Under the pieces are notes generated by a model. The model made no database searches and was not told the origin of the DNA. It worked only from the letters and a program-made list of their open reading frames with translations. From NCBI GenBank assembly GCA_038741495.1, contig JAVYKX010000002.1, forward strand, positions 1 to 64,000: a stretch of 64,000 nucleotides of DNA, in the 5' to 3' direction. Origin of the DNA: Thermofilum sp. Its GTDB lineage: Archaea; Thermoproteota; Thermoprotei; Thermofilales; Thermofilaceae. The first letter of the stretch is position 1; each line of letters begins with the position of its first letter. Positions 8,012-10,578 of this stretch are shown one piece after another. Made by a program: the position numbers and the translations under genes.

Positions 8012-8134
8012 TTAGTCCACACCTGCGCTGAACCCCCTCCGTGTTTTCCCACCTTACCGTAGCTGCAAGTTGAAAGCTGCTCCAGGGTTCCAAAACTTCG
8101 CATCCCCACTGCTTAGCTTGGCGAGAAAGAGCTT

Positions 8135-8194
8135 AGCGTGCCAGCGCTTGACTCGAGAGGCGCGCGTGCGCCCCGAGGCGCTGAACGTCACGCT
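8135..8194 (-). ncRNA. Candidate structured small RNA with own promoter
   Basis: On the minus strand AGCGTG (8189-8194) pairs with CACGCT (8135-8140). Inside lie a second stem AGCGC/GCGCT and a third GGGCGC/GCGCC, separated by internal loops, giving a long single hairpin of 60 bases. A TATA-like GGTTTAAAAC (8213-8222) lies about 25 bases upstream of the 5' end. A pyrimidine-rich CTCTTTCTC follows the 3' side. The shape resembles single-hairpin H/ACA-like guides, but there is no ACA box. It may equally be a chance palindrome in GC-rich DNA. Confidence 0.3.
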
Positions 8195-8295
8195 CACCGG
8201 CTCCAAGCCGCAGTTTTAAACCTTCACCTCGCGCGGAGGCGCCGCGCTAGCCCCGGAGCACGAGAGAGAAAAAAGGAGGAATAGCTTGAGGGTTT

Positions 8296-8604
8296 TCAGC
8301 GCGGCAGGGCCTCCTCTAGTACCTGCTTAACTTTTTCCTCGAGAAGCTTCCCCGCGTGGAGGAAGGTCGCGCCCTCCTCTGTGACAACCCTCACGTCTTC
8401 CGGCGGGATAATGTTCCCAGCCCTCAGCGCCACCACCAACCCCTGGGGCCTAGGCCCCCGGGGAGAGCCCCCTATCCCGGGACGCGGCCGGGCTCTGCGC
8501 TCGGCCAAGTGCCCGGGGGCTCCGCGCGCGACGAGGGGCATACCGACCCCGCCGACCGGCGCTCCGGCGACGGCGCGCTGGGAGGCGGGCGAGCAGGCCG
8601 CCAC
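8296..8604 (-). pseudogene. Degenerate or fast-evolving gene inside repeat copy 1
   Basis: The open frame (GTG start, 102 residues) is unlike any family I recognise. Its C-terminal half looks protein-like: LVVALRAGNIIPPEDVRVVT, then an EEGATF segment and a KLLEEKVKQVLEE helix. The same part of copy 2 reads LVVASRAQHFIPAGEVKVVT, with synonymous and conservative changes, so this was coding in an ancestor. The N-terminal half is Arg/Ala/Pro/Gly-rich and its frame does not match copy 2. An ATG at 8620 shared by both copies lies in a different frame here. I read it as a decaying gene, but a short intact gene is possible. Confidence 0.45.
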
Positions 8605-8710
8605 GAGCAGCCGACCCCATGACGCCCGCCCCGGCCATCCCGCGAGGAGGTCGCGGGGCGGGCCCTCGGAGGCGAAAAGCCTATGAAGGGGGGAGTGATC
8701 CGGCGCGGAA
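8296..8710. repeat. GC-rich dispersed element, copy 1
   Basis: This block is about 70% G+C by eye, well above its surroundings, and aligns along its whole length with 18484-18925. The two share exact stretches such as GTGCCCGGGGGCTCCGCGCGCG, CATGACGCCCGC and GGCGACGG. The rightmost part (about 8651-8710) also aligns with 10579-10640. No terminal inverted repeats or target-site duplications were seen. It fills most of the 800-base gap between the UbiA gene and the gene at 8809; the rest of the gap holds only the candidate RNA at 8135-8194 and a TATA box. Confidence 0.75.
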
Positions 8711-8777
8711 CATTGGGGTTCATTTCATTTCTCGAAAAGAAGCAGAGTTGTTCAACGACCGGGCCAAAAAGTAAAGG

Positions 8778-8785
8778 TTTATAGT
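8778..8785 (+). promoter_or_regulatory. TATA box upstream of membrane protein gene
   Basis: TTTATAGT lies 24-31 bases before ATG 8809, so the transcript would be nearly leaderless. Confidence 0.65.
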
Positions 8786-8808
8786 AGCGGTAGTTCGTTC
8801 TTTGCTCG

Positions 8809-9153
8809 ATGGTGAGCAGAAAAGTAGCGGAGCTCCTTGAGCCGAAAGCGCTGGCGATCATAGCAGTCGCTGTTACTATAATGCTTTCCGCAGGCATCTT
8901 CTACGTTCTTTCGGAGAGGCCGCCGTTTTCTCTCGGAGTGCGCCTCGTCTACCCCGGAGGAGGTGCGCAGACGGTAAGCGAATTTTTTATAGTGGCTTTT
9001 CTCTACGCTATGGGCTTCGCGGGGCTCATGCTGATCTACGAAGCGCCTCGACACAGGTACAGGCGCAGCTTCATGATCTCCACTCTACTATCTGGAGCCG
9101 CTCTTCTCGTCATTTCCACGCTCTTGCTGCTGCTAGTTTACGGGATGAAGTGA
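8809..9153 (+). CDS. Small membrane protein with three transmembrane segments
   Basis: A 114-residue hydrophobic protein with predicted membrane segments at about 14-33, 59-79 and 88-113. A short loop holding LVYPGGGAQTVSEFF links the first two, and a basic APRHRYRRS links the last two. The arrangement, with a TV/TSxEFF entry to the second segment, loosely recalls the membrane part of OST3/OST6-type oligosaccharyltransferase subunits, but this is only an impression. It starts an apparent operon with the RecA-fold, RuvC-fold and zinc-ribbon genes that follow. Confidence 0.75.
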   Translation: MVSRKVAELLEPKALAIIAVAVTIMLSAGIFYVLSERPPFSLGVRLVYPGGGAQTVSEFFIVAFLYAMGFAGLMLIYEAPRHRYRRSFMISTLLSGAALLVISTLLLLLVYGMK

Positions 9154-9183
9154 GAGGAGTTCCTCCAGCACCGGAGGGTAAGA

Positions 9184-9795
9184 GTGGCAGTGCCCGAAAG
9201 CTTGAGAAGCGCCTTCAGAATTCTCGGTAGCCGCGGCTTGAAAGTACTCTATGGCCCACCCCTCTCGTGTAAGACCAGCCTCGCCCTCGCGTTCATTCAC
9301 TCCCGCGGGGAGAAACCAGCCACGTACGTTGGCCTCGGCAAGCACTACCGCACCGCTGAAGAGCTTAAAGGTTTCGTGAAAACTTACGGGATTCTGAACT
9401 TCAAGGAAGAGCTGGACTTCCTGCTGAGCTTACACTCAACCCTGAGGGAGGGAGAGTTCTTAGCGTACGATGGTTTCGGAGCCACACTGCTTCCTCTTCG
9501 GAGCGAGCTTAAAGAAAGCTCGGTAATTCGGCTGGCAATGCTTGTCGTTGCTCTTCTCAAAGTAGCTGCGCAGACCCATTCAGCCTCAGTTCTCGTGCTC
9601 ACAACAGAGACCGGTAAAAGTAGACCGCTGATGTTCAAGGCTCTCAGCAGTTACTCGGACTTGTTTATAAGGGTGCAGAGAGAGGAGAAAACACTTCAGC
9701 TAATTATGCAGCAACCCAACTTGCTTGAGCTCCATAGGGTTATCTTACCGCTCGACGAGATTTACCGCGCTATAGCACCCCTGAAGAAATATTGA
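9184..9795 (+). CDS. RecA/RadB-fold ATPase with altered Walker A
   Basis: A 203-residue protein with a RecA-superfamily look: a short N-terminal helix, then the P-loop GPPLSCKTS (residues 24-32), a hydrophobic strand ending in Asp (EFLAYDG, D96) as probable Walker B, and a strand SASVLVLTTE in the sensor position. The Gly that normally precedes the P-loop Lys is Cys29, so nucleotide binding may be altered. It lacks the N-terminal DNA-binding domain of RadA. Starts GTG 9184 and GTG 9190 are both possible. It lies 28 bases before a RuvC-like gene, which suggests a role in DNA recombination or repair (inference). Confidence 0.7.
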   Translation: MAVPESLRSAFRILGSRGLKVLYGPPLSCKTSLALAFIHSRGEKPATYVGLGKHYRTAEELKGFVKTYGILNFKEELDFLLSLHSTLREGEFLAYDGFGATLLPLRSELKESSVIRLAMLVVALLKVAAQTHSASVLVLTTETGKSRPLMFKALSSYSDLFIRVQREEKTLQLIMQQPNLLELHRVILPLDEIYRAIAPLKKY

Positions 9796-9823
9796 TCTAG
9801 CAAGCTGCTACGGAAAATCGCGG

Positions 9824-10363
9824 ATGCGCCTCAGCGTGCCTAGAGACTGCATTCACGGTAGGCGTGTTCTAGCCAGCATCATGCCGTACTTGATCGAGAA
9901 ACACTTTCTCGATGAAAGGGGTGAAGAGCTTTACTTGCCGTGCGATATCCTGGATGAGCGTTTTGCACACGTGCTAGTGCCACTCTACATTGATGCTTTG
10001 CGGTTAGGAGTGAAGCTCGTCGAGGTCGGCGTGGATCCTGGTACTGCGAGGTGCGGTATAGCGCTAGCCATCGGCGAGGAAGTGATTGCGACTTTTACCT
10101 TACCGCAGCAAGCTCTCGCCGACTTTCTAGGCATTCTGAAGCGCTACTTCGAGATGAGACTTTACTGGGGAGGAGCTATCGAGCCGGAAGAGACAATCGT
10201 GGAGGGAATCTCAGATGTAGTCCACGTTAGCGAGAAAGATCTTCCCCTCGTAAAGCTGGAGCACTGTGGCTCCAGTGATCACGAAAGGGACGCTGTGAGA
10301 ATTCTCGTTAAAGGACGATTAAAGCTGGCGAACGCGAAGCTGAGAGAAGAAATAAAGGATTAA
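9824..10363 (+). CDS. RuvC/YqgF-fold (RNase H-like) nuclease candidate
   Basis: A 179-residue protein whose middle begins with VGVDPGTARCGIA, the first strand of RuvC/YqgF-type RNase H folds with catalytic Asp71. The second acid fits Glu127 in ETIVEGIS, and the last fits the helix SSDHERDAVRIL (D152/D156). All acids needed for two-metal catalysis therefore seem present. An extra N-terminal domain of about 65 residues is not recognisable. It is not the archaeal Hjc resolvase family. Its context, after a RecA-fold ATPase and before a zinc ribbon, fits Holliday-junction or nucleic-acid processing, but the activity is unproven. Confidence 0.7.
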   Translation: MRLSVPRDCIHGRRVLASIMPYLIEKHFLDERGEELYLPCDILDERFAHVLVPLYIDALRLGVKLVEVGVDPGTARCGIALAIGEEVIATFTLPQQALADFLGILKRYFEMRLYWGGAIEPEETIVEGISDVVHVSEKDLPLVKLEHCGSSDHERDAVRILVKGRLKLANAKLREEIKD

Positions 10364-10398
10364 AAGCTTAAAGCGAGGTTTTCGAGTATAGATGCGGA

Positions 10399-10578
10399 AT
10401 GTTCACTGTGAAGTGCGAGAAGTGCGGGTTTGTATTTTATAAGGGGGCAAAGCCTCCCACTCTCTACCGTATCTACGTGCAGTACGGAGGCAGGTGCCCC
10501 AGGTGTGGGCGGGAAATAGGTTGGGTGCCGAAGGAGATAGAAGTAGAGCATAAGAGAAAAGTTCAGATGAAGAAGTAG
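10399..10578 (+). CDS. Small zinc-ribbon protein
   Basis: A 59-residue gene with a clear zinc ribbon: C6-x2-C9 (KCEKCGF) and C33-x2-C36 (CPRCGRE). A Tyr-rich strand pair (YRIYVQYGG) lies between them and a basic tail (HKRKVQMKK) ends it. An ATG at 10392 is in another frame. The knuckle spacing resembles RPA-like or transcription-type ribbons, but I cannot name the family. It closes the apparent cluster with the RecA-like and RuvC-like genes. Confidence 0.75.
   Translation: MFTVKCEKCGFVFYKGAKPPTLYRIYVQYGGRCPRCGREIGWVPKEIEVEHKRKVQMKK

Follow-up and report, generated by a model that had tools for sequence, protein, structure and literature searches.

RESULTS

A RadB-derived gene and a RuvX-like gene are neighbors across Thermoproteota

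Genes for a RecA-fold protein of predicted RadB descent (203 amino acids, aa) and for a RuvX-like protein (179 aa) lie side by side in Thermofilum sp., and their homologs are neighbors across most of the phylum Thermoproteota. Structure prediction confidently gives the RuvX-like protein an RNase H fold, and D71, E137 and an Asp or His at position 153 are conserved in its family. We tentatively favor the reading that the two proteins form a Thermoproteota-wide nuclease-plus-mediator module that would act on branched nucleic acid, with intermediates of recombination or of stalled forks as the most likely substrates.

The window, by which we mean the whole 64,000-nucleotide stretch of DNA that was analyzed, belongs to a genome of 1.62 Mb in four contigs. 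Four plus-strand open reading frames (ORFs) of 114, 203, 179 and 59 aa occupy positions 8809-10578 in the program-made ORF list and its translations. The features of the locus are as follows:

8776-8786, plus strand: AT-rich, box-A-like ggtttatagta, a possible operon promoter some 25 bases ahead of where the membrane protein starts (read from the sequence)
8809-9153, plus strand: three-helix membrane protein, OST3/OST6-like in its C-terminal part, first gene of the apparent operon (PF04756 in relatives, hydropathy)
9184-9795, plus strand: RadB-derived RecA-fold protein, 203 aa (AlphaFold, Foldseek, TIGR02237 in relatives, hhalign)
9824-10363, plus strand: RuvX-like RNase H-fold protein, 179 aa (AlphaFold, Foldseek, conservation in 77 sequences)
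10399-10578, plus strand: zinc ribbon with CxxC...CPxC, 59 aa (alignment of 14 sequences)

A UbiA-family prenyltransferase gene lies upstream of the locus, with EF-1A and S10 farther upstream; downstream are L10e, a DUF2192 protein, S26e and a TrmY-like methyltransferase (EF-1A, S10 and the downstream genes were named from ORF translations). The gap between the UbiA and membrane-protein genes (8012-8808) measures about 800 bases; L011, the closest relative, has about 50-80 bases there. The gap is partly GC-rich and had no match in Rfam, and on its minus strand lies a 102-aa ORF whose C-terminus is protein-like. Elsewhere, the window carries an archaeal RNase P RNA gene (RF00373) at 1960-2249 and several tRNAs.

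A single-sequence search found homologs of the RadB-like ATPase in 16 of 61 related genomes, its own included, and homologs of the nuclease candidate in 10. The order membrane protein, ATPase, nuclease was held at all 15 other ATPase loci, which span six genera, and the syntenic proteins are merely 16-40% identical to those of the window. Profiles built from distant families only ranked both window ORFs best of 550 (E = 4e-5 and 3.5e-4). Since the order is conserved in 15/15 close relatives and the distant-family profiles select both ORFs, the genes are real and not chance ORFs. A rough dN/dS estimate from one pair of close genomes (L013 and L014, at most 24 changes per gene) gave 0.23 for the nuclease gene, 0.57 for the ATPase gene and 0.09 for the membrane-protein gene. 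Loss of the pair was not inferred for genome G011, whose contig stops at the RadB-like gene.

The RuvX-like protein has a predicted RNase H fold and RuvX-type active site

A sequence-only reading of this locus had proposed an RNase H-fold nuclease candidate, to be checked by structure prediction. AlphaFold, with an input of 16 sequences, gave a model that agrees with this proposal (pLDDT 92.3): the strands (65-71, 76-83, 86-94, 110-116 and 131-135) and the helix (152-178) follow the order of the RNase H-like superfamily, and D71 ends strand 65-71. About 63 N-terminal residues precede the fold. The top Foldseek matches were RuvX (7ess, E = 1.3e-3, probability 1.0) and Thermus thermophilus RuvC (6s16 and 4ld0), with TM-scores that are low (0.39-0.42), partly because the N-terminal region finds no counterpart.

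Conservation was assessed in 77 sequences spanning the whole phylum. D71, which had been picked out earlier in the motif VGVDPGT, is invariant (77/77), and E137, directly after strand 5 (131-135), is Glu in 75/77; both belong to the top three alignment columns for conservation over the entire protein. Position 153 in the C-terminal helix is Asp in 59 sequences, His in 14 and Asn in 4, while position 156 is Ser in 32, Asp in 31 and Ala in 14. The last helix of the window protein reads H153xxD156, and across the family a (D/H)xxD pattern has D or H at 153 in 73/77 and D at 156 in 31/77. G116, at the end of strand 4 where RuvC carries its acid, is invariant (77/77). The other acids that the sequence-only reading had named fared differently. 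E127, in the motif IVEG, is Glu in 17/77, the position of D152 is mostly Arg or Lys, and D156 holds in part of the family; the conserved acid is E137, and position 153 is conserved in place of 152. A RuvC-type active site with E127 and D152 was accordingly ruled out. Conservation of the acids among orthologs, which that reading had set as its own test, therefore holds for D71 and fails for E127 and D152, with a different complete set (D71, E137 and position 153) conserved instead.

From this conservation, the predicted catalytic residues of the window protein are D71, E137 and H153 (with D156). As judged from the alignment and the model, the arrangement of the active site is that of RuvX/YqgF/Tex, with the acid after strand 5, and not that of RuvC. 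An acidic residue shifted from strand 4 to strand 5 has been described for RuvX and Tex (PMC3985635), and YqgF has, instead of the RuvC strand-4 glutamate, a Glu that closes strand 5; its E106A and D122A substitutions, at residues matching those of the present family, abolish activity (PMC9601230).

The same residues could belong to a protein that no longer cuts. We consider it rather improbable that the RuvX-like protein is a catalytically weak or dead RNase H-fold binder of branched nucleic acid or of proteins, as proposed for Tex, with its acids serving metal binding or structure. Such a role would suit a site of three acids in which position 156 is free (D, S or A) and position 153 is His in the window and Asn in 4/77, as well as the decaying P-loop of the partner in the same lineage. 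Against it, the rank of D71 and E137 among the three most conserved columns is unexpected if catalysis was lost, and His at the helix position is compatible with activity: active T. thermophilus RuvC naturally has His there, and H143D raises its activity (PMC3834835).

Next, we compared the protein with known families. The window protein matched nothing in Pfam, NCBIfam or PDB sequences, and its membership of the family was assigned through profiles and intermediate families alone. PF03652 (RuvX/YqgF) matched neither this protein nor anything else in its genome, which ruled out an ordinary archaeal RuvX ortholog; among 16 relatives, two had weak matches (best 0.0032) below the curated cut-off. 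An hhalign comparison of the family with Escherichia coli YqgF, represented by a single sequence, was weak (probability 4-14). The family resembles RuvX/YqgF in its RNase H fold, in the move of the strand-4 acid to the end of strand 5, and in having one putative catalytic residue in the C-terminal helix; it adds the N-terminal residues, a (D/H)xx(D/S)A helix motif and the pairing with a RadB-like gene. With RuvC it shares the fold and the DPG motif, and part of the family also has the last-helix (D/H)xxDA seen in E. coli and T. thermophilus RuvC, but the strand-4 glutamate is missing and the acid set differs. The nearest sequence relative is the archaeal DUF460/COG2433 (PF04312; hhalign probability 95-97, E = 6e-9 to 3e-10), with which it shares DPG...G and HxxDA motifs. 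DUF460 proteins, however, are multidomain (about 620-700 aa) and keep the strand-4 acid (ATDV), where the 179-aa RuvX-like protein has Gly and relies on E137 in the predicted site; since DUF460 keeps this acid, we treat the RuvX-like proteins as a separate family. A DUF460 protein is also encoded in the window's genome (G000:C2, about 290-293 kb).

The RecA-fold partner is probably a worn RadB

The 203-aa protein was predicted with a RecA/Rad51 fold (AlphaFold pLDDT 93.7), and Foldseek matched it to RAD51/RadA (E = 4e-9, TM 0.73). The Walker A-like GPPLSCKTS noted in the sequence-only reading is present, together with a Walker B-like aspartate, D96. That reading had described a generic RecA-like ATPase; the RecA type stands, while TIGR02237, hhalign and synteny replace the generic label with a degenerate RadB.

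The window protein had no match in Pfam, NCBIfam or PDB sequences, nor to TIGR02237 (RadB). TIGR02237 did match 4 of 16 close relatives (best 7.6e-8, below the cut-off), and its curated cut-off was exceeded in none of 300 Thermoproteota genomes. The syntenic RadB-like ATPase of families f8 and f11 has a normal P-loop and matches TIGR02237 with E = 6e-32, and a true RadA (PRK04301, E = 4e-155) is encoded beside it. The homolog at locus L123 (family f15) scored 149 bits against TIGR02237 versus 71 against RadA, and its best solved structure is Thermococcus kodakarensis RadB (2cvf, E = 4e-28; RadA, 1e-13). The profile of the window's family (f1) aligned with the distant RadB-like set at an hhalign probability of 99.5 and with a shallow, three-sequence RadA alignment at 3, and RadA was rejected as the identity of the ATPase. 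A Clp1 alignment gave 81%, which is not a clean control value because some RadB-like P-loop sequences were included in that alignment.

On sequence grounds, the 203-aa ATPase is a RecA-fold protein of apparent RadB descent, tied by profile and synteny to the distant members closest to RadB. We label it "RadB-derived" and not RadB, since every Thermoproteota match falls under the curated cut-off. Like RadB, it consists of a RecA core without an N-terminal domain, and its distant member is closest to T. kodakarensis RadB; it differs in its worn P-loop, which departs from the canonical Walker A GxxxxGK(T/S). Most families (f8, f11, f15 and others) keep the canonical motif, and members of the window's genus carry GxPxSxKT. 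An f1 clade (L036-L040) has Arg in place of the P-loop Lys. The P-loop is gone in f2 and also at L072 and L073, and it is largely gone in f3; in both f2 and f3 the RadB-like gene still sits beside the nuclease gene. The decay is stepwise, from K to R to complete loss, with the gene in place (also at L078).

Gene neighborhood of the pair

Of 300 genomes drawn from across the phylum, 198 have a match to the RuvX-like family (E up to 1e-4), although the weakest few matches may be DUF460 proteins. The RuvX-like gene adjoins a RadB-like gene in 26 of the 38 archaeal families examined, Sulfolobales included (f1-f4, f8, f11, f15, f16, f18, f24, f29, f32, f33, f35-f37, f39, f41, f45-f47, f49, f55 and f58-f60). 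Adjacency was absent in f9, f13, f14, f17, f23, f25, f40, f51, f52 and f54, and f7 and f27 were counted in neither group. These counts refer to sampled loci and not to all genomes, and the 26 families are not independent events because neighboring families share ancestry. The conservation of gene order, which the sequence-only reading had suggested checking across Thermoproteales, extends far beyond them, and its pairing of a RecA-type protein with an RNase H-fold nuclease candidate is upheld by this order and by the fold predictions.

In orders other than the window's, the two genes diverge from each other, typically as (OST3/6-like) - CarS - RadB-like <> RuvX-like - Clp1 kinase, where <> marks the divergent genes. 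Metallosphaera javensis, the one relative that a single scan of named genomes gave, has CarS - RadB-like <> RuvX-like - Clp1. The locus has lost both CarS and Clp1 in the window's lineage, where the RadB-like and RuvX-like genes are collinear and, in some genomes, overlapping. The phylum-wide block of CarS, RadB-like, RuvX-like and Clp1/Grc3 genes mixes lipid-synthesis, recombination and RNA-end genes (L112-L132, L136-L144, L148, L151 and L152). At L076, L077 and L079, true RadA, RadB-like, OST3/6-like, RuvX-like and zinc-ribbon genes all lie within about 4 kb.

This neighborhood raises the main rival reading, in which the RuvX-like protein is an RNA-processing nuclease, comparable to bacterial YqgF in 16S rRNA maturation, that works with the Clp1/Grc3 polynucleotide kinase, and the RadB-like gene is merely a divergent neighbor. 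We judge it unlikely, yet it is the main rival because Clp1 and the nuclease gene usually run in the same direction and the YqgF of Deinococcus radiodurans, whose type of active site the family appears to share, is an RNase without junction activity (PMC9601230). An RNase role is as well known as junction cleavage among the closest enzymes that have been characterized. Clp1 lies directly downstream of the nuclease gene in most families, often overlapping it, and the window genes sit between EF-1A/S10 and L10e/S26e. The window's lineage, however, lost Clp1 from the locus and kept the RadB-like gene, with which the nuclease gene became collinear and overlapping. RNase H-fold enzymes leave 5'-phosphates, so a 5'-OH kinase such as Clp1/Grc3 is not an obvious partner for one. 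Mycobacterium tuberculosis RuvX, moreover, cuts branched DNA (7ess title; PMC9601230).

It is quite improbable, in our estimate, that the RadB-like protein acts in RadB's known role of loading or stabilizing RadA beside an unrelated neighbor, in an ancient conserved gene order without common function. Haloferax RadB is indeed a RadA mediator (PMC5480776), and the nearby CarS and OST3/6-like genes have lipid or membrane functions that are not obviously connected to recombination. Yet the RadB-like gene stays beside the nuclease gene where its P-loop is lost (f2) or largely lost (f3), and their adjacency survives rearrangement of the other neighbors.

The three-pass membrane protein said to precede the pair shows three hydropathy peaks (residues 15-33, 59-77 and 92-110). 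PF04756 (OST3/OST6) matched 12 of its 15 relatives (best 7.3e-12); the window protein matched the C-terminal membrane part with 25.9 bits against a cut-off of 27, and its 114 aa leave no room for the thioredoxin domain. It is OST3/OST6-like and probably functionally separate from the nuclease and its RadB-like partner. As a candidate accessory subunit of the archaeal oligosaccharyltransferase, it is conserved over Thermoproteota beside the lipid genes CarS or UbiA. The zinc-ribbon gene adjoins the RuvX-like gene in most relatives and is on the opposite strand in several; because of these strand changes its place as a conserved subunit is uncertain. It is also found beside the RuvX-like gene in class members with no RadB-like gene there (L074, L075, L080, L083, L085, L088 and L089). 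Of the one cluster first proposed, then, the membrane-protein, RadB-like and RuvX-like genes hold together, and the zinc ribbon is a neighbor often found on the other strand.

DISCUSSION

Herein, we describe how the favored nuclease-plus-mediator module may work. The 179-aa protein would be a metal-dependent RuvX/YqgF-type nuclease whose substrate is branched nucleic acid, presumably DNA, and the RadB descendant would help to position it, or regulate RadA, at branched structures, probably through physical contact. Over most of the phylum, the partner has a canonical P-loop, and its gene and that of the nuclease are transcribed divergently. Within the window's family the genes have turned collinear, sometimes overlapping, and the P-loop has decayed; owing to this decay, the partner there probably serves as a scaffold that turns over little ATP or none.

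In favor of the module, besides the predicted fold, the conserved residues and the adjacency over the phylum, the pair was kept together through the loss of CarS and Clp1 and the switch to a collinear operon, and in f8 and f11 it also adjoins true RadA. Against it, the nuclease gene is mostly collinear with the Clp1/Grc3 kinase gene and not with the RadB-like gene, and divergent neighbors may have a promoter in common but no pathway. Some lineages keep the nuclease gene with no RadB-like gene nearby (f9, f13, f17 and others). YqgF-type sites have three carboxylates and not four, the Foldseek E-value of the nuclease is modest, and the characterized D. radiodurans enzyme noted above acts on RNA. 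Pyrococcus RadB acts on Hjc. Sulfolobus RadC2 interacts with RadA and Hjc, a precedent for a RecA-family paralog contacting a resolvase (PMC4080772).

The RuvX-like protein does not replace Hjc, since its own genome encodes an ordinary Hjc with the FPDVF...EVK catalytic motif (G000:C2:444198-444485; L162:636-1058); Hjc is present in 76 of 81 genomes of the class, and replacement was ruled out. Pyrobaculum-like genomes give far stronger Hjc scores (about 1e-30) than the window's family does (about 1e-13). A more specific proposal, possible but doubtful, is that Thermoproteota have an undescribed junction-processing system in which a RuvX-type nuclease and its own RadB mediator operate beside Hjc, the RadB having become an ATP-independent targeting subunit in some lineages.

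To our knowledge, Hjc and XPF/Hef are the junction nucleases known from archaea. RadB has been said to occur only in Euryarchaeota (PMC5480776, PMC7776575), and we found no reports of the RuvX-like family or of RadB in TACK archaea in a literature search that covered neither preprints nor most subscription journals. RadB descendants are nevertheless present across Thermoproteota, including Sulfolobales, where the literature has RadB absent. Gene order links them to a family of predicted RNase H fold for which we found no dedicated model in Pfam or NCBIfam, and they offer a natural series in which a Rad51-family paralog loses its P-loop stepwise. In conclusion, the locus offers a specific candidate for a second nuclease of junctions or forks, amenable to testing in Sulfolobales, and the pair is an uncharacterized candidate part of archaeal DNA (or RNA) repair.
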